Source of the DNA: Pyropia yezoensis
Lineage: Eukaryota > Rhodophyta > Bangiophyceae > Bangiales > Bangiaceae
Assembly: GCA_009829735.1 (NCBI GenBank)
Contig: CM020619.1
Coordinates: forward strand, 19,721,816 to 19,785,815
Reading direction: 5' to 3'
Length of the DNA stretch: 64,000 nucleotides
Under the pieces are notes generated by a model, which made no database searches, was not told the origin of the DNA, and worked only from the letters and a program-made list of their open reading frames with translations. Both the position numbers and the translations under genes were made by a program. Positions 9,231 through 63,418 of this stretch are shown here, piece after piece (position 1 is the first letter of the stretch; every line of letters begins with the position of its first letter).

Positions 9231-9236
9231 GTGTAT

Positions 9237-15418: not shown

Positions 15419-15887
15419 TGTGGCAAAAACCACTTACACACACGGCACCCAAGTTGGGGCGGTGTACAAGGGCTGCCTCCCGTGTCGGGGGAACCGGAAG
15501 AAGTGCAAGTCGCACACACTCTGTCCCTGTTGTGGGGCAAACCCCCCACTGACAAACAAGAGGATGGTGTGTGGTCCAACCGTTTCTTGGTCGGGACGGG
15601 GACGCAGGGCCAAGCCCCGCTGTCCCTCCCCTTATCCCCCCAGGGTCCCCTCCGAATCTCGCCACTCAGAATCTCCCACCCCAGCACCTGCCGACCGGGC
15701 CACACGAAAATTCAAGACGATAAATGCAGAAAACCCTCAAATCCACGTTGGATTTACTACTAAGCTAACTATCCCAAACTTAGGGAATACGGACCCAAAT
15801 GCAGGGGGAGGAACGGATCAGGCTAGTGGCCTGCCGCCCCTTGCATGGCACGTGTTGCCCCCGTACCTGGGGGTCAATACTGCCACA
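15419..15887 (-). repeat. 3' LTR of element A
   Basis: 469 bp, TGTGGC...GCCACA as written on the plus strand. Next to it inside the element is the complement of the polypurine tract (15888-15900, CTCCCCTCTCCTC), as expected for the 3' end of a minus-oriented element. It contains the near-palindrome AAATCCACGTTGGATTT. Confidence 0.95.
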
Positions 15888-16224
15888 CTCCCCTCTCCTC
15901 AGTTCCGACCGACCCGGTCGGCCCTGTGAGGGGGTGCGTGAACGCACGTCTCGGCGTTGGGGGCGCGACTTGCTGTCCCCCCTTGAGTACGTAACGCGGA
16001 TGTGGAGACGATCACGTTGACCGCCCCTCTCCTCAAGCTTGCCCACTCGGCAGCTTGCTCTCCCCGGTTCTCACTTCACCATCCCACCACCTCCCCTTCA
16101 CCTTCCACTGGGCCGCCCCACGCTGGGGAGGCCACCCGTCTACCCACGATCCGAGTCCCCCTCAACTCGAGGCGGGTCTCGTGCCGCTGTAGCCAGGGCG
16201 TCTCTCCCCAACTTGGGGAGAGCC

Positions 16225-18168
16225 ATGGCGACCCCGGGGGTGGAGACGGACTCTCTCGACGAACGTATGGAGGACACCCCCTACGGTGCAGCGCCCGCCG
16301 GGACTTCCGGCGGGGGCTCCGCGATCACTCCGGGGGATGGGACTACCGCGTCACCCGGCTTTGGGATGACGGCGGGGTCTCCCCCGGAGGCGGGACAAGT
16401 TGTCCCGCGTGAGGCCTTGGGGCGGTGGTTTTACCCCGCTTGGCCTCTATATGAGGAGGGGTTGACTGTTCTTCGCTGTGGCCGACTTGGCACGGCGATG
16501 AGTCGGGTATGGGACCGCCTACGGGAGAAGTATCCCCGTAGGGTCGGGTTCCCTGCCGGCTTCAGGACGGACCAGTTTGCCTTCCTGGGCGAAGAGGAGG
16601 TTGAGGACGTTCAGCGTGCCAAGGCCACGGTGGACCGCGGGGGAACTATCCCGGGTCCCGGCGACTTGCCGACCTTTACTTGGGACGCGGTGGCAACTCG
16701 CCCCCCGTACCTTCACGAGGCCGATCCGCACACTCATCACTTTGATGTGCGGATGGAGAAGGACTTCCGGCGAGGTCCCTACTTGGTGACCTCGGCTCAA
16801 CTTGAGTTTCCTCAGCAGTCTGCTGCCAGTAAAGAACAGTACTATCCGAAGAAGCCCGAGTGGTGGCCTCAAGTTGAGGTCCCCTACGGGTTCCCGGCGT
16901 TGCTGCCACGGTTGCTTGACCACTTTGGCTCCGTCATGTTGATGGCTGGCCCTGATCACCTGGTGTGGGCCATGTTGGCCACCCAGTGGCTCCTCGAGGT
17001 CATGTCGACCTGGGTGTGTTGAGTTCAGCGGCGGGGGATGCTCTGGCATCTCCCCCTCCGCCTCATCCAAGGTTTGGAACAGCTCACCCCTCAGCTAGTT
17101 GCTGAGGAGTGCTCATCAGGACAACTCACTCTACTTGAGGAGATGCTCCGCCTCCACAGGTTTGTCGAGTGGGAGAGCATTGAGCACAAGTTGCGCCGCC
17201 CCACTCGTGGGCCCAAGGACGATGGCGCACTTCGCCAGTGCGTGTGGGTCGCTCGTGAACTTCACGACGGCCGTGTGGTCCTACGAGAGGGGTTGGGCAT
17301 CGGGGACTACCCGTATGCCCCGGGGGTGGATCGCCACACTGCGCCACCCCCGGACAAGCCCATAGTTATGGCTGTGCCCTCATATGATGACCATATGACT
17401 CAACCTACTGCGGGGGCCCCAAGTCGGGGTCGCAGTTACACCCGGGTCCCGCCACCTCGGCGTGCCCCTCCGCTTCCTCCTGTCCCCTACCAGGCGCACG
17501 GGGAAATCCCGATTAGCGTGGCCGTTGAGTCGTCCACCCCGGTGTGCCCCAACTTGGGGGCCACCCTCCTGACGGTATACCCCAAGTTGGTGTTACCGCC
17601 CACGCCTCTTACCTCAGAGATGATGATCACCACGTTGGTGCGCACCATTTCCTGGTTGGCCGCGTCGACCGCAACCCTTCAAACTTCCGAGACTCCTCAA
17701 CTTGAGGAGCGCGTTCGTACTGTAGTGGCGACCGCGAGTTGCGAGTCGGTGGCGGAGTTTATGACGGCCGAGTTGGCTCGCATTGGGACTATTATGTTCC
17801 ATCCAGCCTCAATTGGGCGTGGCAAACGTCGTGCGAGCCGGGCATACTCGCCTCCTCGCCGTCGTCGCCGACACTCGCGGCGCTCTCCCTCCGTGTCGGA
17901 AGAAGAGTTGTCTTACTCCGTCTCGGAGTCCTCGACTCCGTCAGAGTCGGAGTCGATCCGGCGTCTGCGTCGCCAACTTGCGCGCAAGACTAAGCAGAAG
18001 AGCAGCCGCGGTCGTCGCCACTTGCGCGACCGTGAGGGGCGTGACGGGTCCGACTTGGAGCCGCCGGCCCCCTCGACTGGTGGGGAGCGTTATCGCCGGG
18101 GGTCTCGCCGCTCGCCTCCACGTGCGGGCGAGGGCCGTGGGGTTGGAGAGTCTAGCATGCATGCCTAG
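16225..18168 (+). pseudogene. antisense ORF of element A, one internal stop
   Basis: This is the copy of the extra ORF described for element B, on the strand opposite gag-pol. It starts at ATG 16225 in a strong context (CCATGG), has a premature TGA at 17020-17022 (element B has sense codons there), and continues in the same frame from 17023 to TAG 18166-18168. Apart from that stop the frame is open for about 1.9 kb and its protein is collinear with the B copy, including the Arg/Ser-rich tail (contains YSPPRRRRRHSRRSPS). It ends a few residues earlier than the B copy. Confidence 0.8.
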
Positions 18169-18279
18169 TTGGCAGCTGCCTTTGTTGTGAGAGTGTGAGG
18201 GTTAGGGATGTAGTTAGAAGCCACTCTGCGTACCACTTCGACTTGAAGCACTCTCTTGGCACTGTTGCTCGGCCTTCCC

Positions 18280-21200
18280 TCACGTTGAGGGAGCGCTTTT
18301 AGGGTCTATCTCATTCCGGGCACAGTAGGCCCGAACCTTCTCAGCGGGAAGGTCCTCCACATACTCCCACGTATCATCCTTGGCTTTGTAGCCAAACCAA
18401 CGCACCCTCAACATGAGGCGGTCAGTGTCCTCATCCCAGCCGTGGTCGATGAACTTATCGAACACGTACTCCTGCGGGCCCTGTTTGGCCGCAGGCAGTG
18501 AGGGGAGGCGCCACGCATTCAACGCACGCGCCCAAGCTGGGTCGCCTGCAGGCGGTGGTGCAACTTTGACCACGTCCTGTCCGTTCACTGTGCGGACCCC
18601 ATCGTCACTTTCGATGGTGAAGCGCCGCCCATCAGTACGGAGGACCTCGTACGGCCCCTTCGTCTGGAATACCAACTTACCCCCCGTTGGGGTGTGTGAG
18701 TGGACCAATACCCAGTCACCCTGTTTGGGGACATGCTTGGCATTACGCACCTTCTTGTCACAGGTACGCTTGTAGCGCTTTTGCGCTTTGTCCATCGCAG
18801 CCCTGACTTAAGGGATGAGTTTTTCAAGCCTAGCAGCGAACTCCACCTTACTCTCATTAGGAGTAGGCGTACTGCCACCATCCTCCCTAGTTGGGAGCGA
18901 CCGCCGCACGGCAATAGACCGCACGCGACGGGGGGTCTCCAAAGCGAGGGGTACTTCCCCGGTAGATGAGTGAACCTGCGAATTGTAGGCAGTGGTAAGA
19001 GTATAGATGTATTGGTCCCACGTCTTCACGTGCTCACTCACATGGTGGCGCAGCTGCCTAACAATAGTTTTGTTGAAGCGCTCCACCTGCCCATTAGTTT
19101 GAAGGTGGTAGGGGGTGGCATAGTTTGCCCGCACCCCCAACATATCCAGCACTCCCTGAAACAGTACAGACGCAAATTGCGGTCCATTGTCCAATAGTGT
19201 ACTATCCGGAATGCCATACGCGGCAACCCAGTGATCTAGGAAGGCTGACACGACCGACATGGCCGTGATCTCTGCCAGTGGGATCGCTCGCGTAAGTTTC
19301 GTGAGGCGGTCGCAGATAACCAGGAGGTACTGGTTGCCCTCCTCGGTCACTGGCAGCGGCCCAAGGATGTCCATCGCCAACGCGGCAAAGAGCTCCTTGG
19401 CCGGGAACAATAGCATAGCCGTAGTAGGCCGCCGTTCCATCAGACGGTTCTGTGCACAACTTGTGCAGGCAGCCACCCAACTGTAGATGTCCACCACCAT
19501 GGACGGCCAGTAGTACCTGGTCCTCAGGGTCTGGTACAGTTTACTAGACCCCAGGTGTCCAGCCGTGGGAGCGTTGTGCTCCCTCTCAAGGATACTGCCC
19601 TTGAGGGATGCGGGGACGACAGGTTGTTCGGTCCCCTGGAGTACCCCCCTCCTCATGAGGAAGCCATCGTCTCCCAGAAAGAACCGCGTCTCCGCCACTG
19701 TATCCAGTGCATCCCTCTGCGACGTGCAGAAGGGATCCTGGGCCTGGGCCTTCACCACCTCGTCCAGGGACAGGGGCAAGTCCTTCTTGTTCCCTGGCGC
19801 CTCGGGGTTCAACGCCTGACCCGAGCGCGTGACTACCCCCACAATGGGGATGTCCTCATCGACTGGGTTAAAGTCCAGCCCCTCGGTAGGTACCCGAGAG
19901 AGGCCGTCGGCAAGGGCATGTTGCCTGCCAGGATGGTACTCAATATCAAAGTTGAAGGGTGCCAGTCGCACCCTCCACCGGTTGAGACGAGTGTTCGTAC
20001 AGTCCGTCTTGAAGATGAACTGCAACGCGCGGTGGTCACAGCGGATGAGGAACTTCTCACCCTCTAGGTAGTGATGAATTGACGTCTCCGCCCACACCAC
20101 TGCGAGTCCTTCCAACTCGGTGACTCCGTAGTTCTTCTCGGCCGAGTTCAGTCCCTTGCTGAAGTATCCCACCGGCAGTACTCCTTTTCCGGCTGCTGCT
20201 GAAGCAACACACAACCAAGTTGGTCGTAGCTAGCATCCACATCCAGGATGTAGTGGCCTCCCAACCTGGGAATAGCCAGGATAGGGGGCTTCAGCAGAAG
20301 GTCCCGAAGAGTCTCAAAGGATTCCTGCTCCACCCGACTTGGGGGAGGCAGGTTCTTCGGTAGCGTTGAGCTCACTAACTCATTCAACGGTTTCGCCACC
20401 TTGGCGAAGCCCTTGGTGAAACGGCGGTACACGTTACACATCCCGAGGAAGCTCCTCATCTGGGTCTGGGTCCGGGGGTACTGAGCCTTACGGATGGCCC
20501 TCAAGTTTTTCTCGTTGACACTGAGACGCCCCGGACGGACAACATGTCCCAAGTATTCCACCTCTTGAGTGAAGAGGTGGCACTTACTCGCCTTCAGTGA
20601 CACACCGGCGTCAGCAAGTAGCTTGAACACCTGGCCAAGATGGCCAATGTGTTCCTCCGGACTTTGGGAGAACACAATGATATCGTCTTGGTACACGAAA
20701 CAGATCTGCCACCGTACTCCGGCCAGAATCGTGTCCATAGCGCGCAGGAAAGTTGCCGGCGCGTTACACAGGCCAAACGGTAGACGCTTGCACTGGTAGG
20801 TACCACAGTGACAGGTAAAGGTAGTTTTATGCCTGTCCTCCGGGGCAATGGGAATTTGCCAGTACCCCGCGTTACAGTCCAGGGTAGAGAACACGTTCGA
20901 CTCCCCCAGAGAGTCCAGACAGTCGTCCATCCTAGGTAGGGGATAACTGTCCTTCACCGTGCTCTCGTTGAGCTTACGGTAGTCGATACAAAACCGGGGG
21001 GTCCCATCAACTTTGGGGACGATAACCACCGGACTCGCCCACTCGGCGTTACTGGCCTTGATCACATCGAGGGCCTCCATGCGAGCAACTTGCTCCTTAT
21101 CGAGGGCCCTTGAACGGGGTCCTCCCCTATAAGGTTGTTGGCGTATAGGGGGTGCACCGGGCTTCAACTCGATCCGGTGTTGGGTGGCTCTCATGAGTCC

Positions 21201-22262
21201 CAATTGGCCATCCCACAACTTGTGATATTGGTCCAAGAGGCGTTCAACTTGAACCCTCAACCTGGGTGGGACACCCTCCATGTTCACATGGGGCCGAGGA
21301 GAGGCGGACGACTTGGCTTGATGCTTCTCCTTTCCGGACTTCGGGTCGCTACTCGCGCCCGCGTTGAGGGTGACCGCTACTACCGGTCCCTCGTGTTGGT
21401 CGATATAGCCGAACTTGGCTCCCGACTTGAAGCACTTGGGCGACGAGCTCAGGTTCATCACCTGGATCCTCCACGGGACTCCGGCTTTGGAGTCCATCGT
21501 GCCAAGGGCAACATGCACTTGGTTCTTGCGAGCAAGACGGGGGTGAGAGTGCACTACCACGTTCCCCGTATAATCAGTTACAACGTCAACGTGCGCCACC
21601 GAGTTGGGGGGCAACGTGACCTTACGGGCTGAACGCAGGGTAGCAGTAAATCCTTCTCTCACAGAGCAAGCAGGCTTCGACTGTGAGACTGTCACAGGAG
21701 CCACAGACTTTCCCTTACCAAGGATGGGGATGTTTTCCCCATTCATCAACTTGACCCAATACTCAGGGCCACAAATCAAAGGCACTTGTGTAACAACATA
21801 AGGGGTACCCAGAAGCAGGGGTACCGATATATTCTGACCTACTCCATAGGTCACGTCGACCTCATGGGTCCCCAACCTAGTTGGTAGGGTCACGGCACCA
21901 ACGATGGGAAGTACCCCACCATTGATATCGATTAGATGGTCAGCTTTAGACTTCCAGTGTTGGAGCTACATCTCCTTTGGTAATAGCGACTTGCGTATCA
22001 AGGAGGCTCCTGACCCGGTATCAAGTACGATACAGGAACAACAGGAGCGGCCGGGGGCAAGTTGCACCCGTCCAGCCACCTGGAAGTTCTCACCCGTCAG
22101 CACCGCGATGACCCGACGTGGGTTTACGTTCTTGGGGAGTCCTACCCGAGGTGGGCGGACTCCCTTAGGTCGCCGCAGTATCCGGCACGGTTGGTTCGTC
22201 CTCTTGACCCACTTGGCCGAGGCTGCCGTTGTGAGCTTTGGACGGCCAGCTCCAACGGTCAT
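18280..22262 (-). pseudogene. pol of element A, multiply broken
   Basis: The order is protease (LDTGSGAS), reverse transcriptase (YQDD at the catalytic site), RNase H, integrase with HHCC finger and DDE motifs, and chromodomain, as in element B. Lesions visible against B are a nonsense TAG at 21966-21968 just after the protease motif, a 1-nt deletion near 20165-20175 at the start of the RNase H to integrase connection, and a nonsense TAA just before the integrase-chromodomain linker (near 18808). The frame begins with ATG 22262, overlapping the last codon of the zinc-knuckle frame (ATGA). Confidence 0.9.
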
Positions 22263-24203
22263 TCGTTTCCCGCCGACTTGGCGTCCGAATCTGAGGACGA
22301 AGGGGAAGACGACGAGTCCGAGGACGACGTGTCCGCCCCCTCCGCCGAGGGTGTGGCGACCGCGACGACCGGTCGAGACCCACCCTCGCGGCGTGAACGT
22401 ACTTCGTTCGTAGCCGACTTCTTACTCGCATTCCTAACAAGTTGTTGGATGCGTTTACTCAACTTGGGGCAATCATATGCCCAGTGTCCATCGGAGTTGC
22501 AGTTCCAACACCGATGGTCTGTTCCGGGAGGGATCTTCCCAACTGGGGAAGACGAAGAGATACCCTGGGAAGTTCCCACGGCAGCTACCACCCTCTCCTT
22601 GCGGATTCGGCGTGCCTCTCTTCATTCTCTGGCCTGGCGCGCCTCCTCCCGTTCCTTGGCCAACTCGGCTTAACGCTCCTGGCGTTGTTCCTCCCGCAAC
22701 TTGCGGTAGGCGTCGCCTCTGCGGTAGGCGAACCTAGCCAATTCGGCCAGGGTCGCCCGGGTAGTGTTATGCTCCCGGGTCTCCATCCGGACTGACATGG
22801 AGTCCCTCCACAAACCGACTCTTCACCACAGTTTGTGGATGAAGAAACCCACAAAGATTGTTGAGCTTACGGACTCGCTCCGCAAAGGACAACTCGTCCT
22901 CCGCCTCTTCCTGGTGGGTCTGCGTAAACTCCTCGACTTGAAAAGCCAACGCCACTTCATCAACCATGGCCCTCAACAACCAGTTGACGAGCTCCAAATA
23001 GGACGTCACCTCCCCAGCGCCTCCACTTGAGGAGCTGGGCATGACGGACATAAGTTCTGTCCGCAGGTCGCCCTTCGTAAACTCCTGCAGCATGTAAAAA
23101 TCCATGCCTTCACTTATGGCATTGTCGTCACAGGCTTTTGTGAAACGACGTAGGAACTCAAAGACACGGAGGGGGGGAGTTCCATCCCACTCCGCTTTGT
23201 GCCCAAAAGAGTGAAGTGCATTCTTCTTGGCACGGCCCATGGCTCGGGCCTGGTCAGGACCATACGCCACCGACTTGTTGTGGAGGGCGTAGGTCTCACA
23301 ATCAAAGATCCTCTGGTAGACCGGGATGGCTACCTGGATCTTGGGCGGCACCTCACGTTGAGGGAACAGCCGCTGTGGCACTGGGGTAAGTTGACCCTCA
23401 GTGCCCATAGCCTGGCGCGGCGCGCTTGGTGTGGCCGTCGGCGTTTCCGGGGGAAACTCCCCCATGAAGGGCGTACGCCCCACCGAATATGGTGTGGCTC
23501 CCTCGTTGGGAGTCACAGGTGTCGCCCCCTGTTCGGGGTGACCCGAGATAGGCGTGAGGAGGGATTCCCCCTGCGCCTGTGGGCTCGAAAGCCCCGATCC
23601 GGTCTGGACATTAAGGCCATCTGGCAAACTCGCCACAATCTGATTCAGAATAGTATTCGTCATCGTGACCACCAGGTCCGGCAAAGTCTGCCGCAACACA
23701 TTGGTCGCCTCCCGACGGACAGTTTCCGCGAGGAGTGGATTGACGACTCCAGTTGAGTCTCGGTCCGCCTCCGGGAGTCCACCTGAGGGGTAACCACGTT
23801 CCTCAGGGGTCTCAACCGGGGGCATGGGCGCGAGCGCATCGCCGACCAACGGAGGTCCGCCGTCCTCCGAAAGCCTAGTTGGCGACGGCTCCAAGCCAAA
23901 GTTGGATCCAACCCGGGTGGAACCCGCGGGGACAGTCCTCACCCCTTGGGACGTTCCCGTTGAGTATACCACGCGGTGGCCAGACTTCGGCCCACCCACA
24001 TCAGAAGTGTCACCCGAGTGAACTCTCGACTGAGTCGGGGTGGCCTTCTGCCCGCCCGCACTTCCAGTCCTGCTGGCTTGAGGGACCTCTAGTCCCTCTG
24101 CGACCCCAGGTAAACCCACCTGTGTCTCACCAGTATTCAAAGGCACTGAAGTACGTGCGTCACCCGTGTACTCCCCGGACGACGAGGGGTCCGAGCTAGC
24201 CAT
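22259..24203 (-). pseudogene. gag of element A, frameshifted
   Basis: Gag starts at ATG 24203 (begins MASSDPSSSGEYTGD), with a long Pro/Ser/Thr/Gly-rich N-terminal half and then a capsid-like helical half (contains MGRAKKNALHSFGHKAEWD). A 2-nt loss near 22795 ends the frame early at 22767. The zinc-knuckle segment (CWNCNSDGHWAYDC, CX2CX4HX4C) follows at 22591-22259, separated by the same TAA and TGA seen in element B. Unlike B, this copy lacks the TAG in the N-terminal half. Confidence 0.85.
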
Positions 24204-24322
24204 GTTGGCTGACGATCCGTATGACACGGTCCAAGTCCACCGTTCCTCTGAGACAGAGGGCCCCCTACACCCGGGTGCACCCGGAGGTAAAGTTTACCTC
24301 TGTCCCCTGCTGCTCCACGAAA

Positions 24323-24791
24323 TGTGGCAAAAACCACATGCACACACGGCACCCAAGTTGGGGCGGTGTACAAGGGCTGCCTCCTGTGTCGGGGGAACCG
24401 GAAGAAGTGCAAGTCGCACACACTCTGTCCCTGTTGTGGGGCAAACCCCCCACGGACAAACAAGAGGATGGTGTGTGGTTCAACAGTTTCTTGGTCGGGA
24501 CGGGGACGCAGGGCCAAGCCCCGCTGTCCCTCCCCTTATCCCCCCAGGGTCCCCTCCGAGTCTCGCCACTCAGAATCTCCCACCCCAGCACCTGCCGACC
24601 GGGCCACACGAAAATTCAAGATGATAAATGCAGAAAACCCTCAAATCCAAGTTGGAATTTCTACTAAGCTAACTATCCCAGACTTAGGGAATACGGACCA
24701 AAATGCAGGGGGAGGAACGGATCAGGCTAGTGGCCTGCCGCCCCTTGCATGGCACGTGTTGCCCCCGTACCTGGGGGTTAATACTGCCACA
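24323..24791 (-). repeat. 5' LTR of element A
   Basis: 469 bp with the same ends as the partner LTR, followed by the target duplication CGTCG at 24792-24796. It differs from the 15419-15887 LTR at about 14 positions by my count. Confidence 0.95.
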
Positions 24792-30437: not shown

Positions 30438-30906
30438 TGTGGCAGTATTGACCCCCAGGTACGGGGGCAACACGTGCCATGCAAGGGGCGGCAGGCCACT
30501 AGCCTGATCCGTTCCTCCCCCTGCATTTGGGTCCGTATTCCCTAAGTTTGGGATAGTTAGCTTAGTAGAAAATCCAACTTGGATTTGAGGGTTTTCTGCA
30601 TTTATCGTCTTGAATTTTCGTGTGGCCCGGTGGGCAGGTGCTGGGGTGGGAGATTCTGAGTGGCGAGATTCTGAGGGGACCCTGGGGGGATAAGGGGAGG
30701 GACAGCGGGGCTTGGCCCTGCGTCCCCGTCCCGACCATGAAACTGTTGGACCACACACCATCCTCTTGTTTGTCCGTGGGGGGTTTGCCCCACAACAGGG
30801 ACAGAGTGTGTGCGACTTGCACTTCTTCCGGTTCCCCCGACACGGGAGGCAGCCCTTGCACACCGCCCCAACTGGGGTGCCGTGTGTGCATGTGGTTTTT
30901 GCCACA
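30438..30906 (+). repeat. 5' LTR of element B
   Basis: 469 bp, TGTGGC...GCCACA. It contains the perfect hairpin AAATCC-AACTT-GGATTT at 30570-30586. The complementary strand is open through almost the whole LTR, as in all five LTR copies in the window. Confidence 0.95.
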
Positions 30907-31025
30907 TTTCGTGGAGCAGCAGGGGACAGAGGTAAACTTTACCTCCGGGTGCACCCGGGTGTAGGGGGCCCTCTGTCTCAGAGGAACGGTGGACTTGGAC
31001 CGTGTCATACGGATCGTCAGCCAAC
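30907..31025 (+). promoter_or_regulatory. leader of element B with candidate primer-binding site and hairpin
   Basis: Between the LTR and the gag ATG. A TGG-starting stretch 5 bases inside the LTR (30912-30927, TGGAGCAGCAGGGGAC) is the candidate tRNA primer-binding site, but I could not match it to a tRNA 3' end with confidence. A perfect hairpin GAGGTA-AACTT-TACCTC lies at 30929-30945, followed by the palindrome CACCCGGGTG. The same leader occurs in elements A and C, and this is where packaging and priming signals would be expected. Confidence 0.5.
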
Positions 31026-32972
31026 ATGGCTAGCTCGGACCCTTCGTCGTCCGGGGAGTACACGGGTGACGCACGTACTTCAGTGCCTTTGAATACTGGT
31101 GAGACACAGGTGGGTTTACCTGGGGTCGCAGAGGGACTAGAGGTCCCTCAAGCCAGCAGGACTGGAAGTGCGGGCGGGCAACAGGCCACCCCGACTCAGT
31201 CGAGAGTTCACTCGGGTGACACTTCTGATGTGGGTGGGCCGAAGTCTGGCCACCGTGTGGTATACTCAACGGGAACGTCCCAAGGGGTGAGGACTGTCCC
31301 CGCGGGTTCCACTCGGGTTGGAGCCAACTTTGGCTTGGAGCCGTCGCCAACTAGGCTTTCGGAGGACGGCGGACCTCCGTTGGTCGGCGATGCGCTCGCG
31401 CCCATGCCCCCGGTTGAGGCCCCTGAGGGACGTGGTTACCCCTCAGGTGGACTCCCGGAGGCGGACCGAGACTCAACTGGAGTCGTCAATCCACTCCTCG
31501 CGGAAACTGTCCGTCGGGAGGCGACCAATGTGTTGCGGCAGACTTTGCCGGACCTGGTGGTCACGATGACGAATACTATTCTGAATCAGATTGTGGCGAG
31601 TTTGCCAGATGGCCTTAGTGTCCAGACCGGATTGGGGCTTTCGAGCCCGCAGGCGCAGGGGGAATCTCCCCTGACGCCTATTCCGGGTCGCCCCGATCAG
31701 GGGGGGACCCCTGTGACTCCCAACGTGGGAGCAGCACCATTCTCGGTGGGGCGTACGCCCTTCATGGGGTAGTTTCCCCCGGAAACGCCGACGGCCACAC
31801 CAAGCGCGCCGCGCCAGGCTACAGGCGCTGAGGGTCAACGTACCCCAGTGCCACAGCGGCTGTTCCCTCAACGTGAGGTGCCGCCCAAGATCCAGGTAGC
31901 CATCCCGGTCTACCAGAGGATCTTTGACTGTGAGACCTACGCCCTCCACAACAAGTCGGTGGCGTATGGTCCTGACCAGGCCCGAGCCATGGGCCGTGCC
32001 AAGAAGAATGCACTTTATTCTTTTGGGCACAAAGCGGAGTGGGATGGAACTCCCCCCCTCCGTGTCTTTGAGTTCCTACGTCGTTTCACAAAAGCCTGTG
32101 ACGACAATGCCATAAGTGAAGGCATGGATTTTTACATGCTACAGGAGTTTACGAAGGGCGACCTGCGGACAGAACTTATGTCCGTCATGCCCAGCTCCTC
32201 AAGTGGAGGCGCTGGGGAGGTGACGTCCTATTTGGAGCTCGTCAACTGGTTGTTGAGAGCCATGGTTGATGAAGCGGCGTTGGCTTTTCAAGTCGAGGAG
32301 TTTACGCAGACCCACCAGGAAGAGGCGGAGGACGAGTTGTCCTTTGCGGAGCGAGTCCGTAAGCTCAACAATCTTTGTGGGTTTCTTCATCCACAAGCTG
32401 TGGTGAAGAGTCGGTTTGTGGAGGGACTCCATTGGTTAGTCCGGATGGAGACCCGGGAGCATAACACTGCCCGGGCGACCCTGGCCGAGTTGGCCAGGTT
32501 GGCCTATCGCAGAGGCGAGGCCTACCGCAAGTTGCGGGAGGAACAACGCCAGGAGCGTTAAGCCGAGTTGGCCAAGGAACGGGAGGAGGCGCGCCAGGCC
32601 AGAGAATGAAGAGAGGCACGCCGAATCCGCAAGGAGAGGGTGGTAGCTGCCGTGGGAACTTCCCAGGGTATCTCTTCGTCTTCCCCAGTTGGGAAGATCC
32701 CTCCCGGAACAGACCATCGGTGTTGGAACTGCAACTCCGATGGACACTGGGCATATGATTGCCCCAAGTTGAGTAAACGCATCCAACAACTTGTTAGGAA
32801 TGCGAGTAAGAAGTCGGCTACGAACGAAGTACGTTCACGCCGCGAGGGTGGGTCTCGACCGGTCGTCGCGGTCGCCACACCCTCGGCGGAGGGGGCGGAC
32901 ACGTCGTCCTCGGACTCGTCGTCTTCCCCTTCGTCCTCAGATTCGGACGCCAAGTCGGCGGGAAACGAATGA
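31026..32972 (+). pseudogene. gag of element B (capsid and zinc knuckle) with three in-frame stops
   Basis: One frame from ATG 31026 to TGA 32970-32972. The N-terminal half is Ser/Thr/Pro/Gly-rich. 31848-32560 is helical and capsid-like (contains MGRAKKNALYSFGHKAEWD, EFLRRFTKACDDNAISEGMD). A CX2CX4HX4C zinc knuckle (CWNCNSDGHWAYDC) starts at 32721, followed by a Ser/Asp-rich tail. The frame is interrupted by TAG 31770-31772 (GAG in A and C), TAA 32559-32561 and TGA 32607-32609. The last two are also present in A, so they predate both insertions. The terminal TGA overlaps the pol ATG as ATGA. Without recoding this copy cannot make full Gag. Confidence 0.85.
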
Positions 32973-35900
32973 CCGTTGGGTCTGGTCGTCAGAAGCTCTC
33001 AACGGCAGCCTCGGCCAAGTGGGCCAGGAGGACGAACCAACCGTGCCGGATACTGCGGCGACCTAAGGGAGTCCGCCCACCTCGGGTAGGACTCCCCAAG
33101 AACGTAAACCCACGTCGGGTCATCGCGGTGCTGACGGGTGAGAACTTCCAGGTGGCTGGACGGGTGCAACTTGCCCCCGGAGGCGCCTGTTGTGCCCGTA
33201 TCGTACTTGATACCGGGTCAGGAGCCTCCTTGATACGCAAGTCGCTATTACCAAAGGAGGTGAAGCTCCAACGCTGGAGGTCCAAAGCTGACCATATGAT
33301 TGACATCAATGGTGGGGTACTTCCCATTGTTGGTGCCGTGACCCTACCAACTAGGTTGGGGACCCATGAAATCGACGTGACCTATGGAGTAGGTCAGAAT
33401 ATATCGGTACCCCTGCTTCTGGGTACCCCTTATGTTGTTACACAAGTGCCTTTGATTTGTGGCCCTGAGTATTGGGTCAAGTTGATGAATGGGGAGACTA
33501 TCCCCATCCTTGGTAAGGGAAAGTCTGTGGCTCCTGTGACAGTCTCACAGTCGAAGCCTGTTTGCTCTGTGAGGGAAGGGTTTAATGCTACCCTGCGTCT
33601 AGCCCGTAAGGTCACGTTGCCCCCCAACTCGGTGGCGCACGTTGACGTTGTAACTGATTATACGGGGAACGTGGTAGTGCACTCTCACCCCCGTCTTGCT
33701 CGCAAGAACCAAGTGCATGTTGCCCTTGGCACGATGGACTCCAAAGCCGGAGTCCCGTGGAGGATCCAGGTGATGAACCTGAGCTCGTCGCCCAAGTGCT
33801 TCAAGTCGGGAGCCAAGTTTGGCTATATCGACCAACACGAGGGACCGGTAGTAGCGGTCACCCTCAACGCGGGCGCAAGTAGCGACCCGAAGTCCGGAAA
33901 GGAGAAGCATCAAGCCAAGTCGTCCGCCTCTCCACGGCCCCATGTGAACATGGAGGGAGTCCCCCCCAAGTTGAGGGTTCAAGTTGAACGCCTCTTGGAC
34001 CAATATCACAAGTTGTGGGATGGCCAATTGGGACTCATGAGAGCCACCCAACACCGGATCGAGTTGAAGCCCGGTGCACCCCCTATACGCCAACAACCTT
34101 ATAGGGGAGGACCCCGTTCAAGGGCCCTCGATAAGGAGCAAGTTGCTCGCATGGAGGCCCTCGATGTGATCGAGGCCAGCAACGCCGAGTGGGCGAGTCC
34201 GGTGGTTATCGTCCCCAAAGTTGATGGGACCCCCCGGTTTTGTATCGACTACCGTAAGCTCAACGAGAGCACGGTGAAGGACAGTTATCCCCTACCTAGG
34301 ATGGACGACTGTCTGGACTCTCTGGGGGAGTCGAACGTGTTCTCTACCCTGGACTGTAACGCGGGGTACTGGCAAATTCCCATTGCCCCGGAGGACAGGC
34401 ATAAAACTACCTTTACCTGTCACTGTGGTACCTACCAGTGCAAGCGTCTACCGTTTGGCCTGTGTAACGCGCCGGCAACTTTCCTGCGCGCTATGGACAC
34501 GATTCTGGCCGGAGTACGGTGGCAGATCTGTTTCGTGTACCAAGACGATATCATTGTGTTCTCCCAAAGTCCGGAGGAACACATTGGCCATCTTGGCCAG
34601 GTGTTCAAGCTACTTGCTGACGCCGGTGTGTCACTGAAGGCGAGTAAGTGCCACCTCTTCACTCAAGAGGTGGAATACTTGGGACATGTTGTCCGTCCGG
34701 GGCGTCTCAGTGTCAACGAGAAAAACTTGAGGGCCATTCGTAAGGCTCAGTACCCCCGGACCCAGACCCAGATGAGGAGCTTCCTCGGGATATGTAACGT
34801 GTACCGACGTTTCACCAAGGGCTTCGCCAAGGTGGCGAAGCCGTTGAATGAGCTAGTGAGCTCAACGCTACCGAAGAACCTACCTCCCCCAAGTCGGGTG
34901 GAGCAGGAATCCCTTGAGACTCTTCGGGACCTTCTGCTGAAGCCCCCCATCTTGGCTATTCTCAGGTTGGGAGGCCACTACATCCTGGATGTGGACGCTA
35001 GCTACGACCAACTTGGTTGTGTGTTGCTTCAGCAGCAGCCGGACAAGGAGTACTTGCCGGTGGGATACTTCAGAAAGGGGCTGAACTCGGCCGAGAAGAA
35101 CTACGGAGTCACCGAGTTGGAAGGACTCGCAGTGGTGTGGGCGGAGACGTCACTTCATCACTACCTAGAGGGTGAGAAGTTCCTCATCCGCTGTGACCAC
35201 CGCGCGTTGCAGTTCATCTTCAAGACGGACTGTACGAACACTCGTCTCAACCGGTGGAGGGTGCGACTGGCACCCTTCAACTTTGACATTGAGTACCGAC
35301 CTGGCAGGCAACATGCCCTTGCCGACGGCCTCTCTCGGGTACCTACCGAGGGGCTGGACATTAACCCAGTCGATGAGGACATCCCCATTGTGGGGGTAGT
35401 CACGCGCTCGGGTCAGGCGTTGAACCCCGAGGCGCCAGGGAACAAGAAGTACTTGCCCCTGTCCCTGGACGAGGTGGTGAAGGCCCAGGCCGAGGATCCC
35501 TTCTGCAAGTCGCGGAGGGATACACTGGATACCGTGGTGGAGACGCGTATCTTTCTGGGAGACGATGGCCTCCTCATGAGGAGGGGGGTACTCCAGGGGA
35601 CCGAACAACCTGTCGTCCCCGCATCCCTCAAGGGCAGTATCCTTGAGAGGGAGCACAACGCTCCCACGGCTGGACACCTGGGGTCTAGTAAACTGTACCA
35701 GACCCTGAGGACCAGGTACTACTGGCCGTCCATGGTGGTGGACATCTATAGTTGGGTGGCTACCTGCACAAGTTGTGCACAGAACCGTCTGATGGAACGG
35801 CGGCCTAGTACGGCTATGCGATTGTTCCCGGCCAAGGAGCCCTTCGCCGCGTTGGCGATGGACATCCTCGGGCCACTGCCAGTGACCGAGGAGCGCAACC

Positions 35901-36952
35901 AGTACCTCCTGGTCATCTGTGACCGCTTCACGAAACTTACGCGAGCGATCCCACTGGCAGAGATCACGGCCATGTCGGTCGTGTCAGCCTTCCTAGATCA
36001 CTGGGTTGCCGCGTATGGAATCCCGGATAGTACACTATCGGACAATGGACCGCAATTTGCGTCTGTACTGTTTCAGGGAGTGCTGGATATGTTGGGGGTT
36101 AAGGCAAACTATGCCACCCCCTACCACCCACAAACCAATGGGCAGGTGGAGCGCTTCAACAAAACTATTGTTAGGCAGCTGCGCCACTATGTGAGTGAGC
36201 ACGTGAAGACGTGGGACCAATACATTTCTATCCTTACTACTGCCTACAATTCGCAGGTTCACTCATCTACAGGGGAAGTACCCCTCGCTTTTGTGACCCC
36301 CCGTCGTGTGCGGTCTATTGCCGTGCGGCGGTCGCTCCCAACTAGGGAGGATAGTGGCAGTACGCCTACTCCTACTGAGAGTAAGGCGGAGTTCGCTGCT
36401 AGGCTGGAACACCTCATCCCTAAAGTCAGGGCTGAGATGGACAAAGCACAAAAGCGCTACAAGCGTACCTTTGACAAGAAGGTGCGCAATGCTAAGCATG
36501 TCCCCGAACAGGGTGACTGGGTGCTGGTACACTCGCACACCCCAACTGGGGGTAAGTTGGTATTCCAGACGAAGGGGCCGTACCAGGTCCTCCGTACTGA
36601 TGGGCGGCGCCTCACCATCGAAAGTGACGATGGGGTCCGCACAGTGAACGGACAGGACGTGGTCAAAGTTGCACCACCGCCTGCAGGTGAGCCAGCTCGG
36701 GCGCGTGCTTTGGAAGCGTGGCGCCTCCCCTCACTGCCTGCGGCCAAACAGGGCCCGCAGGAGTACGTGTTCGATAAGTTCATCGACCACGGATGGGATG
36801 AAGACACTGACCGCCTCATGTTGAGGGTGCGTTGGTTTGGCTACAAAGCCAAGGATGATACGTGGGAGTATGTGGAGGACCTTCCCGCTGAGAAGGTTCG
36901 GGCCTACTGTGCCCGGAATGAGATAGACGCTAACAGCCCTCCCTCAACGTGA
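32969..36952 (+). CDS. pol: Pol polyprotein (protease, RT, RNase H, integrase, chromodomain)
   Basis: 1,327 codons, uninterrupted. The aspartic protease has LDTGSGAS near residue 81. The reverse transcriptase has FCIDYRKLNE upstream and YQDD near residue 524. RNase H has DVDAS near 674. The integrase HHCC finger is near 902-935, its catalytic Asp in DILGPLP near 965, the second Asp in SDNGPQF near 1025 and the Glu in GQVERFNK near 1061. A chromodomain spans about 1266-1320 (contains VRWFGYKAKDDTWEYVEDLP). The chromodomain would direct integration to modified chromatin. The ATG overlaps the gag-frame TGA (ATGA), suggesting restart after termination or a -1 shift. The stop TGA 36950-36952 lies inside a perfect hairpin (36940-36956). 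It converges with the antisense ORF, leaving 81 bp between. Confidence 0.96.
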   Translation: MTVGSGRQKLSTAASAKWARRTNQPCRILRRPKGVRPPRVGLPKNVNPRRVIAVLTGENFQVAGRVQLAPGGACCARIVLDTGSGASLIRKSLLPKEVKLQRWRSKADHMIDINGGVLPIVGAVTLPTRLGTHEIDVTYGVGQNISVPLLLGTPYVVTQVPLICGPEYWVKLMNGETIPILGKGKSVAPVTVSQSKPVCSVREGFNATLRLARKVTLPPNSVAHVDVVTDYTGNVVVHSHPRLARKNQVHVALGTMDSKAGVPWRIQVMNLSSSPKCFKSGAKFGYIDQHEGPVVAVTLNAGASSDPKSGKEKHQAKSSASPRPHVNMEGVPPKLRVQVERLLDQYHKLWDGQLGLMRATQHRIELKPGAPPIRQQPYRGGPRSRALDKEQVARMEALDVIEASNAEWASPVVIVPKVDGTPRFCIDYRKLNESTVKDSYPLPRMDDCLDSLGESNVFSTLDCNAGYWQIPIAPEDRHKTTFTCHCGTYQCKRLPFGLCNAPATFLRAMDTILAGVRWQICFVYQDDIIVFSQSPEEHIGHLGQVFKLLADAGVSLKASKCHLFTQEVEYLGHVVRPGRLSVNEKNLRAIRKAQYPRTQTQMRSFLGICNVYRRFTKGFAKVAKPLNELVSSTLPKNLPPPSRVEQESLETLRDLLLKPPILAILRLGGHYILDVDASYDQLGCVLLQQQPDKEYLPVGYFRKGLNSAEKNYGVTELEGLAVVWAETSLHHYLEGEKFLIRCDHRALQFIFKTDCTNTRLNRWRVRLAPFNFDIEYRPGRQHALADGLSRVPTEGLDINPVDEDIPIVGVVTRSGQALNPEAPGNKKYLPLSLDEVVKAQAEDPFCKSRRDTLDTVVETRIFLGDDGLLMRRGVLQGTEQPVVPASLKGSILEREHNAPTAGHLGSSKLYQTLRTRYYWPSMVVDIYSWVATCTSCAQNRLMERRPSTAMRLFPAKEPFAALAMDILGPLPVTEERNQYLLVICDRFTKLTRAIPLAEITAMSVVSAFLDHWVAAYGIPDSTLSDNGPQFASVLFQGVLDMLGVKANYATPYHPQTNGQVERFNKTIVRQLRHYVSEHVKTWDQYISILTTAYNSQVHSSTGEVPLAFVTPRRVRSIAVRRSLPTREDSGSTPTPTESKAEFAARLEHLIPKVRAEMDKAQKRYKRTFDKKVRNAKHVPEQGDWVLVHSHTPTGGKLVFQTKGPYQVLRTDGRRLTIESDDGVRTVNGQDVVKVAPPPAGEPARARALEAWRLPSLPAAKQGPQEYVFDKFIDHGWDEDTDRLMLRVRWFGYKAKDDTWEYVEDLPAEKVRAYCARNEIDANSPPST

Positions 36953-36956
36953 GGGA
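36940..36956 (+). terminator. hairpin enclosing the pol stop codon
   Basis: TCCCTC-AACGT-GAGGGA is a perfect 6-bp stem with a 5-base core; the pol stop TGA occupies 36950-36952 at the core-stem junction. Element A keeps the same hairpin. It could affect pol termination or transcript end formation in either direction; its function is not shown. Confidence 0.4.
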
Positions 36957-37033
36957 AGGCCGAGCAACAGTGCCAAGAGAGTGCTTCAAGTCGAAGTGGT
37001 ACGCAGAGTGGCTTTTAACTACAGCCCTAACCC

Positions 37034-39007
37034 TCACACTCTCACAGCAAAGGCAGCTGCCAACCAGGCACGCATGCTAGACTCTCTCATTCCACGGCCC
37101 TCGCCTTCACGTGGAGGCGAGCGGCGAGACCCACGCCGAAAACGGTCTCCACTCGTTGGAAGGGGCGGCGGCTCCAAGTCGGAACCGTCGCGCCCTTCAC
37201 GGTCGCGCAAGTGGCGCCAACCGTGGCTGCTCTTCTGCTTAGTCTTGCGCGCAAGTTTGCGACGCAGACGCTGGACAGACTCCGTCTCCGACGGGGTAGA
37301 GGACTCCGAAACGGAGTAAGACAAATCGTCTTCCGACACGGAGGGAGAGCGCCGCGAGTGTCGGCGACGACGGCGAGGAGGCGAGTATGCCCGGCTCGCG
37401 CGACGTTTGCCACGCCCAAGTGGGGCTGGCTGGGGCATAATAGCCCCAATGCGAGCCAACTCGGCTGTCATAAATTCCGCCACCGACTCGCAACTCGCGG
37501 TCGCCACTGCAGTACGAACGCGCTCCTCAAGTTGAGGAGTCTCGGAACTTTGGAGGGTTGCGGTCGACGCGGCCAACCAGGAAATGGTGCGCACCAACGT
37601 GGTGATCATCATCTCTGAGGTTAGAGGCGTGGGCGGTAACACCAACTTGGGGTATACCGTCAGGAGGGTGGCCCCCAAGTTGGGGGACACCGGGGTGGAC
37701 GACTCAGCGGCCACGCTGATCGGGATGTTCCCGTGAGGCTGGAAAGGAACAGGAGGAAGCGGAGGGGCACGCCGAGGTGGCGGTACCCGGGTATAACTGC
37801 GACCCCGACTTGGGGCCCCCGCAGTAGGTTGAGTCATATGGTCATCATATGAGGGCACAGCCATAACTATGGGCTTGTCCGGGGGTGGCGCAGTGTGGCG
37901 ATCCACCCCCGGGGCATACGGGTAGTCCCCGATGCCCAACCCCTCTCGTAGGACCACACGGCCGTCGTGAAGTTCACGAGCGACCCACACGAACTGGCGA
38001 AGTGCGCCATCGTCCTTGGGCCCACGAGTGGGGCGGCGCAACTTGTGCTCAATGCTCTCCCACTCGATAAACTTGTGGGGGCGGAGCATCTCCTCAAGGA
38101 GAGTGAGTTGTCCTGATGAGCACCCCTCAGCAACTAGCTGAGGGGTGAGCTGTTCCAAACCTTGGATGAGCCGGAGGGGGAGATGCCAGAGCATCCCCCG
38201 CCGCTGAACACAAGACACCCAGGTCGACATGACCTCGAGGAGCCACTGGGTGGCCAACATGGCCCACACCAGGTGATCAGGGCCAGCCGTCAACATGACG
38301 GAGCCGAACTGGTCAAGCAACCGTGGCAGCAACGCCGGGAACCCGTAGGGGACCTCAACTTGAGGCCACCACTCGGGCTTCTTCGGATAGTACTGATCCT
38401 TGCTGGCAGCAGACTGCTGAGGAAACTCAAGTTGAGCCGAGGTCACCAAGTAGGGACCTCGCCGGAAGTCCTTCTCCATCCGCACATCAAAGTGATGAGT
38501 GTGCGGATCGGCCTCGTGAAGGTACGGGGGGCGAGTTGCCACCGCGTCCCAAGTAAAGGTCGGCAAGTCGCCGGGACCCGGGATAGTTCCCCCGCGGTCC
38601 ACTATGGCCTTGGCACGCTGAACGTCCTCAACCTCCTCTTCGTCCAGGAAGGCAAACTGGTCCGTCCTGAAGCCGGCAGGGAACCCGACCCTACGGGGAT
38701 ACTTCTCCCGTAGGCGGTCCCATACCCGACTCATCGCCGTGCCAAGTCGGCCACAGCGAAGAACAGTCAACCCCTCCTCATATAGAGGCCAAGCGGGGTA
38801 AAACCACCGCCCCAAGGCCTCACGCGGGACAACTTGTCCCGCCTCCGGGGGAGACCCCGCCGTCAACCCAAAGCCGGGTGACGCGGGAGTCCCATCCCCC
38901 GGAGTGATCGCGGAGCCCCCGCCGGAAGTCCCGGCGGGTGCTGCACCGTAGGGGGTGTCCTCCATACGCTCATCTAGAGAGTCCGTCTCCACTCCCGGGG
39001 TCGCCAT
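37034..39007 (-). CDS. antisense ORF: 657-residue protein with Arg/Ser-rich tail
   Basis: From ATG 39007 (context CCATGG) to TGA 37034-37036, on the strand opposite gag-pol and lying between pol and the 3' LTR. The N-terminal ~60 residues are Gly/Pro/Thr-rich. The next ~300 look folded (contain ALGRWFYPAWPLYEEGLTV, REKYPRRVGFPAGFRTDQF, VWAMLATQWLLEVMSTW). A Pro-rich linker follows, then a Leu/Thr-rich segment (SEMMITTLVRTISWLAAST), and a ~130-residue basic Arg/Ser-rich tail (YSPPRRRRRHSRRSPS) resembling SR-type RNA-binding regions. No membrane helix or catalytic motif is recognised. Element A carries a collinear copy with one stop. Expression would need an antisense promoter near or in the 3' LTR. 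Antisense ORFs are known in some plant Ty3/gypsy lineages (Grande, Retand/Ogre types); I do not know this protein. Confidence 0.8.
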   Translation of the reverse strand: MATPGVETDSLDERMEDTPYGAAPAGTSGGGSAITPGDGTPASPGFGLTAGSPPEAGQVVPREALGRWFYPAWPLYEEGLTVLRCGRLGTAMSRVWDRLREKYPRRVGFPAGFRTDQFAFLDEEEVEDVQRAKAIVDRGGTIPGPGDLPTFTWDAVATRPPYLHEADPHTHHFDVRMEKDFRRGPYLVTSAQLEFPQQSAASKDQYYPKKPEWWPQVEVPYGFPALLPRLLDQFGSVMLTAGPDHLVWAMLATQWLLEVMSTWVSCVQRRGMLWHLPLRLIQGLEQLTPQLVAEGCSSGQLTLLEEMLRPHKFIEWESIEHKLRRPTRGPKDDGALRQFVWVARELHDGRVVLREGLGIGDYPYAPGVDRHTAPPPDKPIVMAVPSYDDHMTQPTAGAPSRGRSYTRVPPPRRAPPLPPVPFQPHGNIPISVAAESSTPVSPNLGATLLTVYPKLVLPPTPLTSEMMITTLVRTISWLAASTATLQSSETPQLEERVRTAVATASCESVAEFMTAELARIGAIMPQPAPLGRGKRRASRAYSPPRRRRRHSRRSPSVSEDDLSYSVSESSTPSETESVQRLRRKLARKTKQKSSHGWRHLRDREGRDGSDLEPPPLPTSGDRFRRGSRRSPPREGEGRGMRESSMRAWLAAAFAVRV

Positions 39008-39009
39008 GG

Positions 39010-39030
39010 CTCTCCCCAAGTTGGGGAGAG
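39010..39030 (-). promoter_or_regulatory. 8-bp hairpin abutting the antisense ORF start codon
   Basis: CTCTCCCC-AAGTT-GGGGAGAG is a perfect palindrome ending two bases before the antisense ATG (39005-39007). On the minus strand the mRNA would read stem, CC, ATGG. A GC-rich stem so close to the start could hinder scanning or be bound by a regulator. Element A has the identical arrangement at 16202-16225. Confidence 0.5.
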
Positions 39031-39331
39031 ACGCCCTGGCTACAGCGGCACGAGACCCGCCTCGAGTTGAGGGGGACTCGGATCGTGGGTAGACGGGTGG
39101 CCTCCCCAGCGTGGGGCGGCCCAGTGGAAGGTGAAGGGGAGGTGGTGGGATGGTGAAGTGAGAACCGGGGAGAGCAAGCTGCCGAGTGGGCAAGCTTGAG
39201 GAGAGGGGCGGTCAACGTGATCGCCTCCACATCCGCGTTACGTACTCAAGGGGGGACAGCAAGTCGCGCCCCCAACGCCGAGACGTGTGTTCACGCACCC
39301 CCTCACAGGGCCGACCGGGTCGGTCGGAACT

Positions 39332-39344
39332 GAGGAGAGGGGAG
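39332..39344 (+). other. polypurine tract of element B
   Basis: GAGGAGAGGGGAG sits directly against the 3' LTR, the expected plus-strand primer site for reverse transcription. Element A has the same tract at 15888-15900 on the other strand. Confidence 0.85.
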
Positions 39345-39813
39345 AGTGGCAGTATTGACCCCCCGGTACGGGGGCAACACGTGCCATGCAAGGGGCGGCA
39401 GGCCACTAGCCTGATCCGTTCCTCCCCCTGCATTTGGGTCCGTATTCCCTAAGTTTGGGATAGTTAGCTTAGTAGTAAATCCAACGTGGATTTGAGGGTT
39501 TTCTGCATTTATCGTCTTGAATTTTCGTGTGGCCCGGTGGGCAGGTGCTGGGGTGGGAGATTCTGAGTGGCGAGATTCTGAGGGGACCCTGGGGGGATAA
39601 TGGGAGGGACAGCGGGGCTTGGCCCTGCGTCCCCGTCCCGACCAAGAAACTGTTGGACCACACACCATCCTCTTGTTTGTCCGTGGGGGGTTTGCCCCAC
39701 AACAGGGACAGAGTGTGTGCGACTTGCACTTCTTCCGGTTCCCCCGACACGGGAGGCAGCCCTTGCACACCGCCCCAACTTGGGTGCCGTGTGTGCATGT
39801 GGTTTTTGCCACA
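39345..39813 (+). repeat. 3' LTR of element B
   Basis: 469 bp with first base A instead of T (AGTGGC...GCCACA), and 7 differences from the 5' LTR in total. It is followed by the target duplication CTTTC. Confidence 0.95.
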
Positions 39814-60447: not shown

Positions 60448-60916
60448 TGTGGCAGTGTTGACCCCCAGGTACGGGGGCAACACGTGCCATGCTAGGAGCG
60501 GCAGGCCACTAGCCTGATCCGTTCCTCCCACTGCATTTGGGTCCGTATTCCCTAAGTTTGGGATAGTTAGCTTGGTTGTAAATCCAACTTGGATTTGAGG
60601 GTTTTCTGCATTTATCGTCTCGAATTTTCGTGTGGCCCGGTGGGCAGGTGCTGGGGTGGGAGATTCTGTGTGGCGAGATTCTGAGGGGACCCTGGGGGGA
60701 TAAGGGGAGGGACAGCGGGGCTTGGCCCTGCGTCCCCGTCCCGACCAGGAAATTGTTGGACCACACACCATCCTCTTGTTTGTCCGTGGGGGGTTTGCCC
60801 TACAACAGGGACAGAGTGTGTGCGACTTGCACTTCTTCCGGTTCCCCCGACACAGGAGGCAGCCCTTGTACACCGCCCCAACTTGGGTGCCGTGTGTGTA
60901 AGTGGTTTTTGCCACA
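60448..60916 (+). repeat. 5' LTR of element C
   Basis: 469 bp, TGTGGC...GCCACA, aligned end to end with the LTRs of A and B with scattered substitutions. The 5 bases before it are CTACC; the partner duplication is outside the window. Confidence 0.95.
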
Positions 60917-61035
60917 TTTCGTGGAGCAGCAGGGGACAGAGGTAAACTTTACCTCCGGGTGCACCCGGGTGTAGGGGGCCCTCTGTCTCAGAGGAACGGT
61001 GGACTTGGACCGTGTCATACGGATCGTCAGCCAAC

Positions 61036-61555: not shown

Positions 61556-61599
61556 GAGTCACCGTGATAAATTCTGAAAATCTGTGATAAAATCTGACC
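61556..61599 (+). repeat. left terminal inverted repeat of the DNA transposon
   Basis: 44 bp beginning GAGTCACCG and ending AATCTGACC, matching the complement of 63372-63415 at 43 positions. Confidence 0.93.
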
Positions 61600-61653
61600 T
61601 GTCTCCAGCCCGAACAGTCGTATCTCCGAGGTACACGAGTGACTATCTTCGCT

Positions 61654-63415: not shown

Positions 63416-63418
63416 CTT

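Follow-up and report, generated by a model that had tools for sequence, protein, structure and literature searches.

Selected short hairpins with family-specific loops along a Ty3/gypsy-type retrotransposon of the red alga Pyropia yezoensis

INTRODUCTION

Multiple dispersed packaging signals have been described for MS2, picornaviruses and hepatitis B virus (reviewed in PMC6281560). As presented in that review, RNA virus genomes of this kind carry many stem-loops that have a short loop motif in common and differ in their stems, the motif being tied to the coat protein. For the long terminal repeat (LTR) retrotransposons Ty1 and Ty3, in which the RNA is chosen by Gag and Ty3 Gag binds the genomic RNA, packaging sequences are not precisely defined and scattered sites may contribute; a repeated hairpin with a common loop is not among the features described in that account (PMC4974528). 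The present work concerns element B, like Ty1 and Ty3 an LTR retrotransposon, located in a 64,000-nucleotide window (G000:C2:19721816-19785815) of the 107-Mb genome of Pyropia yezoensis, the farmed red alga known as nori. As in the RNA viruses, many stem-loops that share a motif are distributed along its RNA and are under selection; here, the protein partner is putative and the carrier is an LTR retrotransposon. The hairpin field is real, selected and family-specific.

Some RNA viruses have a genome-scale ordered RNA structure in which synonymous change is suppressed in coding stems. Element B resembles them in a folding energy that lies below that of shuffled sequences along the element, and differs from them in a loop size and core particular to the family and in an equal folding energy on both strands. 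Quasi-palindromes left by template switching are mutation products with arbitrary arms, perfect pairing and short loops. The hairpins of element B have the same three properties, but their stems are conserved at synonymous sites. Within the open papers that were searched, no description of such hairpin fields in retrotransposons was found.

RESULTS

Element B carries a dense field of hairpins with a common loop

The basic count comprised perfect inverted repeats with a 5-nt spacer, and a core was taken as AASTT-like when it lay within one base of AACTT or AAGTT. At arms of at least 4, 5, 6, 7 and 8 bp, element B (30438-39813) contains 129, 49, 22, 13 and 5 such repeats, of which 58, 27, 12, 7 and 4 have an AASTT-like core. 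The corresponding means of 100 dinucleotide shuffles were 42.7, 11.2, 3.1, 0.8 and 0.2 for all cores and only 0.97, 0.24, 0.05, 0.01 and 0.01 for AASTT-like cores, and the 41.65 kb of host DNA in the window gave 300, 103, 34, 10 and 6 repeats with any core and 4, 1, 0, 0 and 0 with an AASTT-like one. An earlier sequence-only reading had proposed over 30 inverted repeats with this core, a number that holds when 4-bp arms are counted and falls short at arms of at least 5 bp. Its expectation that chance would give few repeats with such a core, and that the long arms are unusual, was borne out, and all 15 hairpins that it named are exact in coordinates, arms and cores. The two hairpins with 9-bp arms that it had set apart as having other cores both exist; the core of one, AAGGT, is only one base off AAGTT, and that of the other, CACTC, is not AASTT-like.

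The hairpins are present in the LTR, leader, gag, pol and antisense open reading frame (ORF), as had been claimed, and coding sequence has indeed accommodated them. In 500 codon-preserving shuffles each, the observed numbers remained in excess in pol (15 vs 1.1), in the antisense ORF (20 vs 0.8) and in two stretches of gag (5 vs 0.3 and 7 vs 0.2). The counts thus lie far above both the shuffled and the codon-preserving controls that had been suggested as a check. When internal mismatches were allowed, the field comprised 82 hairpins (Table 1), compared with 4.7 ± 2.4 (maximum 12) in 100 shuffles. Their density per kb is 6.4 in the 5′ LTR, 10.5 in the leader (a single hairpin), 12.2 in gag, 7.0 in pol and 10.9 in the 3′ region.

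Repeats were in excess at the odd spacers 3, 5 and 7 (47, 49 and 42, about 12 being expected) and only mildly so at the even spacers 4, 6 and 8 (20, 22 and 17); centres with at least 7 of 9 pairs were odd in 62 cases and even in 14. Because of this odd-spacer excess, the hairpins of element B are to be regarded as odd-length quasi-palindromes. AASTT-type cores have C or G in the middle; AAATT and AATTT each occur twice. Around 40 AASTT sites of the element, the pairing rate at the six positions flanking the core was 0.62, 0.65, 0.68, 0.55, 0.52 and 0.52, falling to 0.38 at the seventh position and to 0.25 farther out, where the background is 0.26-0.27. The 20 AASTT sites of host DNA showed no pairing signal near the core. 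Windows of 100 nt fold better than their shuffles in element B (mean z −1.58 on the sense and −1.40 on the antisense strand), the mean z of host pieces being −0.08 to −0.29. Tandem repeats were rejected as the source of the hairpins, with Tandem Repeats Finder giving just one 15-nt repeat of 2.4 copies per LTR, and a host-wide property was ruled out for the host DNA of the window by its few AASTT-like repeats. None of the 4227 families of Rfam 15 matched 30438-39813 above the gathering score.

Selection keeps the stems paired

Conservation of the stems was examined in pairs of related copies, element A of the window and further loci of the genome (L numbers) included. Watson-Crick stem pairs were changed on one side less often than control pairs in L043|L051 (11.5% vs 21.2%), the gag part of L042|L043 (13.2% vs 23.8%), B|L042 (8.8% vs 13.2%), L051|L052 (5.6% vs 8.4%), L053|L054 (5.1% vs 6.5%) and L039|L044 (4.2% vs 7.2%). 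Young copy pairs differed little (5′ half of A|B, 3.7% vs 4.4%; L045|L048, 2.6% vs 2.5%, left out of the pooled counts of this comparison).

At four-fold synonymous sites in stems, pooled with A|B and L049|L050 kept apart, 30 of 614 had changed, where 57.9 were expected after codon stratification (z −4.75) and 79.2 from neighbours within 45 nt. Reading from the other copy gave 35 of 616 against 57.2 expected (z −3.8); these two readings depend on each other, and L051 belongs to two of the copy pairs. The strongest single contributor was L043|L051, and L053|L054 and L039|L044 alone were not significant. The antisense ORF, read in its own frame, gave the same picture in B|L042, with 6 of 98 sites changed in stems and 57 of 315 outside. 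No protection was seen in L049|L050, which are not studded with hairpins (21 of 40 vs 19.4 expected), nor in A|B (5 of 151 vs 5.6). Selection therefore acts on the pairing, because four-fold sites show about half as much change in stems as at codon-matched positions elsewhere, an effect not seen in L049|L050. The stem conservation in pol and the antisense ORF, together with loops proper to each family, supports the proposal of functional RNA hairpins made by the sequence-only reading. Residues under the pol hairpins are slightly less conserved than the others (0.481 vs 0.529, not significant).

The field is confined to one group of families and its loop differs between them

Relatives in the same genome were examined in ten 9.9-kb stretches found by an integrase search, two 9-kb stretches and four pol stretches. 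Also studded are the L039 group (L039, L040, L041 and L044, a single family whose aligned pieces are about 92-99% alike), L051/L052 together with the 5′ parts of L042 and L043, and L053/L054. The L039 group favours spacers 5, 7 and 9, with loops of 5-9 nt centred on AST. In L051/L052, loops are mainly of 3 nt and spacers 3 and 5 are favoured (25 and 21 repeats in L051, 4.0 expected, with 11 also at 4 and 6). L053/L054 have 4-nt loops and favour even spacers (29, 24, 17 and 18 repeats at 4, 6, 8 and 10 in L053, 4.2 expected). Enriched cores are AGT and ACT in B, L039 and L044; CTAAG, CTTTG, CTACG and CTTGG in L051 with the gag of L043, the L042 version of those regions ranking others first; and TTAA, ATAA and TTCA in L053.

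Among 18 ORFs compared with 200 codon-preserving shuffles, the seven from studded families have 2.5-3.4 times the expected hairpins (z 6.4-10.6). The pol of the neighbouring family L049/L050 shows no excess (ratios 0.62 and 0.44), and a hairpin field is likewise lacking in nine ORFs from families farther removed (0.58-1.67), L018 being mildly raised (1.67, z 2.5). As a separate observation, the 17 and 12 hairpins in the pol of L049 and L050, against 27.3 in the codon shuffles, look as if they were avoided. Most other gypsy pieces among L009-L038 lack a hairpin field; L010 has 10 and 8 repeats at spacers 5 and 7 in 3.2 kb, and its 378-aa ORF has 4 where 6.9 are expected. In the distant gypsy family L045/L048 (32% to B), hairpins with a 4-nt spacer are raised over the locus and not in the pol ORF (1.35 and 1.20). 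The 3′ half of L043 (oriented 5600-9901) has loops closed as G[NNNN]C. No relatives in viral contigs were confirmed.

A pol tree of 17 rows grouped B with the L039 group (100/99) and L051 with L053 (96/100). L049/L050 stand on a long branch beside the studded groups, in a place where the tool warns that long branches meet. Every family of the B group with DNA examined is studded; the remaining rows are database proteins, two of them, P0005 and P0007, being almost identical to L044 and L053. Among the families examined, the hairpins are thus confined to one group, and loop size and core differ from family to family. L042 (G000:C1:24571600-24581500) is a natural chimera, with a 5′ half of L051 type (96%) and a 3′ half of B type (93%) and a break near L042 5605 (oriented), or B 4616. 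L043 leaves the L051 type near the same break, into an unplaced 3′ half. The gag knuckle also varies by group, being CWxC in B and L039, CHxC in L042/L043 and CYLC in L049/L050.

Strand preference of the stem changes

Changes between Watson-Crick and G-U pairs, read on the sense strand, outnumbered those between Watson-Crick and A-C by 152 to 105 over seven copy pairs, each with the same lean (p 0.004; L043|L042, which overlaps L043|L051, is left out of the sum), and control pairs were even (3850:3965). Where the first mispair past a stem is followed by another pair, it was G-U in 47 and A-C in 23 cases in B, L039, L043 and L044, or 37:17 (p 0.009) once L039, a locus overlapping L044, is set aside. 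Among loops that differ from AASTT by a single base, there is a lean towards AASNN on the sense strand (41 vs 17 hairpins). Two candidates for sense-specific loops in other families were rejected: for L051, four pol stretches gave 7:3, 7:2, 5:2 and 4:2 for C[TNN]G against C[NNA]G, but two gag stretches gave 2:4 and 2:3, and NNNA against TNNN was even in L053 (13:13) and L054 (12:12). Sense RNA is probably the selected molecule, and a mechanism at the RNA level is likely.

Architecture of element B and its surroundings

Element B has LTRs flanked by a 5-bp target repeat, CTTTC (30433-30437 and 39814-39818), and encodes reverse transcriptase, RNase H and integrase in the order of a Ty3/gypsy-type LTR retrotransposon (Table 1). 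In this copy the gag frame is broken by stop codons. No Pfam match was found in its gag; gag-like matches were found in relatives. The match to a chromodomain, the domain that marks the chromovirus lineage at the end of pol, scores 19.5 bits, below the Pfam cut-off of 25.1. Elements A and B have 47 and 58 hairpins with at least 4 contiguous pairs, 45 being common to both, and the inverted repeats of element C also favour spacers 3 and 5 (13 and 13, about 4.5 expected). A genome search with the B LTR gave at least 41 matches, 40 being scored out of 1711 first-look candidates; with B pol, 35 of 6726 first-look candidates were scored, all 95-100% identical over their length. Both copy numbers are lower bounds. 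Because of the many candidates and the high identity of the scored pol copies, the B family is considered large and young.

Table 1. Features of the window, in window coordinates
Feature	Position	Strand	Region or remark
Hairpin field, 82 hairpins	30438..39345		loop differing from AASTT by one base at most, 4 or more of 6 stem pairs; about 1 per 107 nt
AAATCC-AACTT-GGATTT	30570..30586		LTR
GAGGTA-AACTT-TACCTC	30929..30945		leader
GACTC-AACTG-GAGTC	31470..31484		gag
CCTGGCC-GAGTT-GGCCAGG	32480..32498		gag
TCTTCCC-CAGTT-GGGAAGA	32679..32697		gag
Hairpin, 9-bp arms, AAGGT loop	34820..34842		pol
TGCAC-AAGTT-GTGCA	35765..35779		pol; kept in L039/L040/L041/L044, one A-T pair changed to G-C
ACCCC-AACTG-GGGGT	36539..36553		pol
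TCCCTC-AACGT-GAGGGA	36940..36956		end of pol
CTCCTC-AAGTT-GAGGAG	37523..37539		antisense ORF
CCCCC-AAGTT-GGGGG	37672..37686		antisense ORF
Hairpin, 11-bp arms, AACTA loop	38121..38147		antisense ORF
GCGGGAC-AACTT-GTCCCGC	38824..38842		antisense ORF
CTCTCCCC-AAGTT-GGGGAGAG	39010..39030		antisense ORF
5′ LTR of element B	30438..30906	+	TGTGGC...GCCACA; 469 bp; repeat of 39345-39813
gag region	31002..32968	+	open stretches 31002-31772 and 31848-32561, one frame; CCHC knuckle near 32721
pol, 1327 aa	32969..36952	+	reverse transcriptase, RNase H, H2C2, integrase core, weak chromodomain
Antisense ORF, 719 aa	37034..39193	-	no Pfam match
3′ LTR of element B	39345..39813	+	sequence repeat of 5′ LTR
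Element A	15419..24791	-	same family as B, 96.8% alike
Element C, partial	60448..64000	+	truncated by window end

Downstream of pol, L040/L041 (34-36% over about 285 aa) and L049/L050 (27-30% over 166-199 aa) carry relatives of the antisense ORF in the corresponding antisense position; the ORF also has one database match, P0123 (95%). On these data it is a conserved antisense gene that occurs both with and without hairpins. Its product, which had been suggested to bind the hairpins, is not favoured as their reader, given the ORF relatives in L049/L050, a family with no hairpin excess.

Other repeats of the window are a tandem array of 22-nt units in host DNA at 46097-46532 (14 register-shifted copies of a 150-nt reference) and 36-nt repeats in a G+C-rich stretch at 56003-57234, where they overlap long ORFs.

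DISCUSSION

The best explanation of the hairpin field, to which we give a probability of about 0.42, is that the hairpins are dispersed, family-specific recognition sites in the sense RNA, perhaps packaging signals read by Gag. The full-length sense RNA would carry about 80 short stem-loops whose stems are held paired by selection and whose arm sequence is free at each site, the favoured loop in the B family being C[AASUU]G. The element itself would encode the RNA-binding partner that recognises these stem-loops, Gag and its one CCHC knuckle being the likeliest choice, and the genomic RNA would be gathered, condensed and packaged through them; in related families the loop would have changed, each family labelling its own RNA. 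Since pairing is selected while arm sequence is free, it is the structure that appears to be in use. That some protein reads the loop is slightly favoured, and a reader encoded by the family is suggested more than a host factor because the loop is common to the sisters B and L039 and different in other families of the same genome. Gag is the natural candidate because it binds genomic RNA in known elements and because its knuckle differs between the groups, a loose correlation; Gag and packaging as the role stand a little below even odds. Dispersed packaging or condensation signals fit because the hairpins span the whole packaged RNA and their positions turn over. A more far-reaching proposal is a private hairpin code, in which dozens of hairpins per genomic RNA, with a loop size and sequence of the family's own, would be read by its own Gag, so that co-resident families would sort their RNAs and the code would have shifted within the group while the field stayed. 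It is put forward tentatively; the L042 chimera suggests that recombination between RNAs of two families is possible, which sets a limit to the strictness of any sorting.

Several observations weigh against a protein-read signal in the sense RNA. Four-fold loop sites are not conserved (in L043|L051, 9 of 21 changed vs 109 of 379), and L051 has a weak loop preference that varies with the data set. Stems have no more double Watson-Crick changes (13 of 5213 pair-views, 0.0025) than control pairs (0.0027), the control being exceeded only in L051|L052 (4 of 739) and L039|L044 (2 of 746). A|B is too young for covariation (13 of 576 positions changed in stems, 9 of 297 in loops, 270 of 8500 elsewhere). 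The absence of compensatory change, which the sequence-only reading would have taken as a refutation, is therefore partly borne out: the pooled data show no enrichment, although 2 of the 15 pol hairpins of B are kept in the L039 group with a pair changed on both sides; the other 13 are not kept there or not alignable. As to the strand, AACTT (19) and AAGTT (21) are nearly equal in number, which is odd for a single-stranded signal, and folding energies were alike on both strands in all 12 sequences tested (p 0.2-0.98). Against the background frequency of such words, the lean of 41:17 does not stand out clearly (Fisher p 0.076). Mispairs within AASTT-type hairpins were G-U in 6 and A-C in 8 cases, G-U to A-C ratios were 13:16 in the 5′ half of A|B (one-copy definition) and 4:9 in L045|L048, and the first mispair past the stem in L045 and L048 was 8:9.

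Part of this evidence would be expected if the selected feature were a genome-wide RNA structure with no loop-reading protein, in which stems shield the RNA (against silencing, nucleases or double-strand sensing), compact it or pause it, and the loop preference follows from local folding. The conservation of stems and not of loops at four-fold sites, and the better folding of B windows than of host pieces, agree with this; loop size and core, however, depart sharply from random in B, the L039 group and L053 and are not the same in all families of one host, and we consider the explanation rather unlikely. It is also conceivable, with a lower probability, that selection acts on DNA or on both strands of RNA, through short dyads of the cDNA or provirus or through hairpins required in both the sense and the antisense transcript. 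The strand symmetry of loops and folding energies and the presence of an antisense ORF point that way, but the sense strand tolerates G-U over A-C and the young integrated copies A|B show little protection.

A host RNA-binding protein acting, for example, in export, stability or translation would account for hairpins over the whole transcript, and no result speaks against a host reader as such; the different loops within one host would nevertheless require several of them, which leaves this reading with a small chance. The chance is slight that a generator without selection made the field, reverse transcriptase leaving short perfect palindromes through template switching or self-priming, with a loop size set by each enzyme. 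The arms are arbitrary and mostly perfect, loop size follows the family and the residues under the pol hairpins are, if anything, less conserved; yet change at synonymous sites is halved in stems relative to matched sites. This conservation is left unexplained by template switching alone, which the sequence-only reading had offered as one origin, and the hairpins are therefore not mere debris of that process, although such a mechanism may have made the first of them. Chance, base composition or codon use has a negligible probability: host DNA is itself mildly enriched in inverted repeats generally, over many spacers, but the shuffles, the codon and host controls and the parity of the excess rule these causes out.

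According to the review of Ty1 and Ty3 (PMC4974528), the signals by which LTR retrotransposons choose their own RNA lack a precise definition and may be scattered. In Pyropia yezoensis the candidate sites can be listed by eye, occur by the dozen in each RNA, are held by selection, and one genome offers several natural versions of them. Retroelements would thereby add a comparative case to the dispersed packaging signals that have until now been argued for in RNA viruses.

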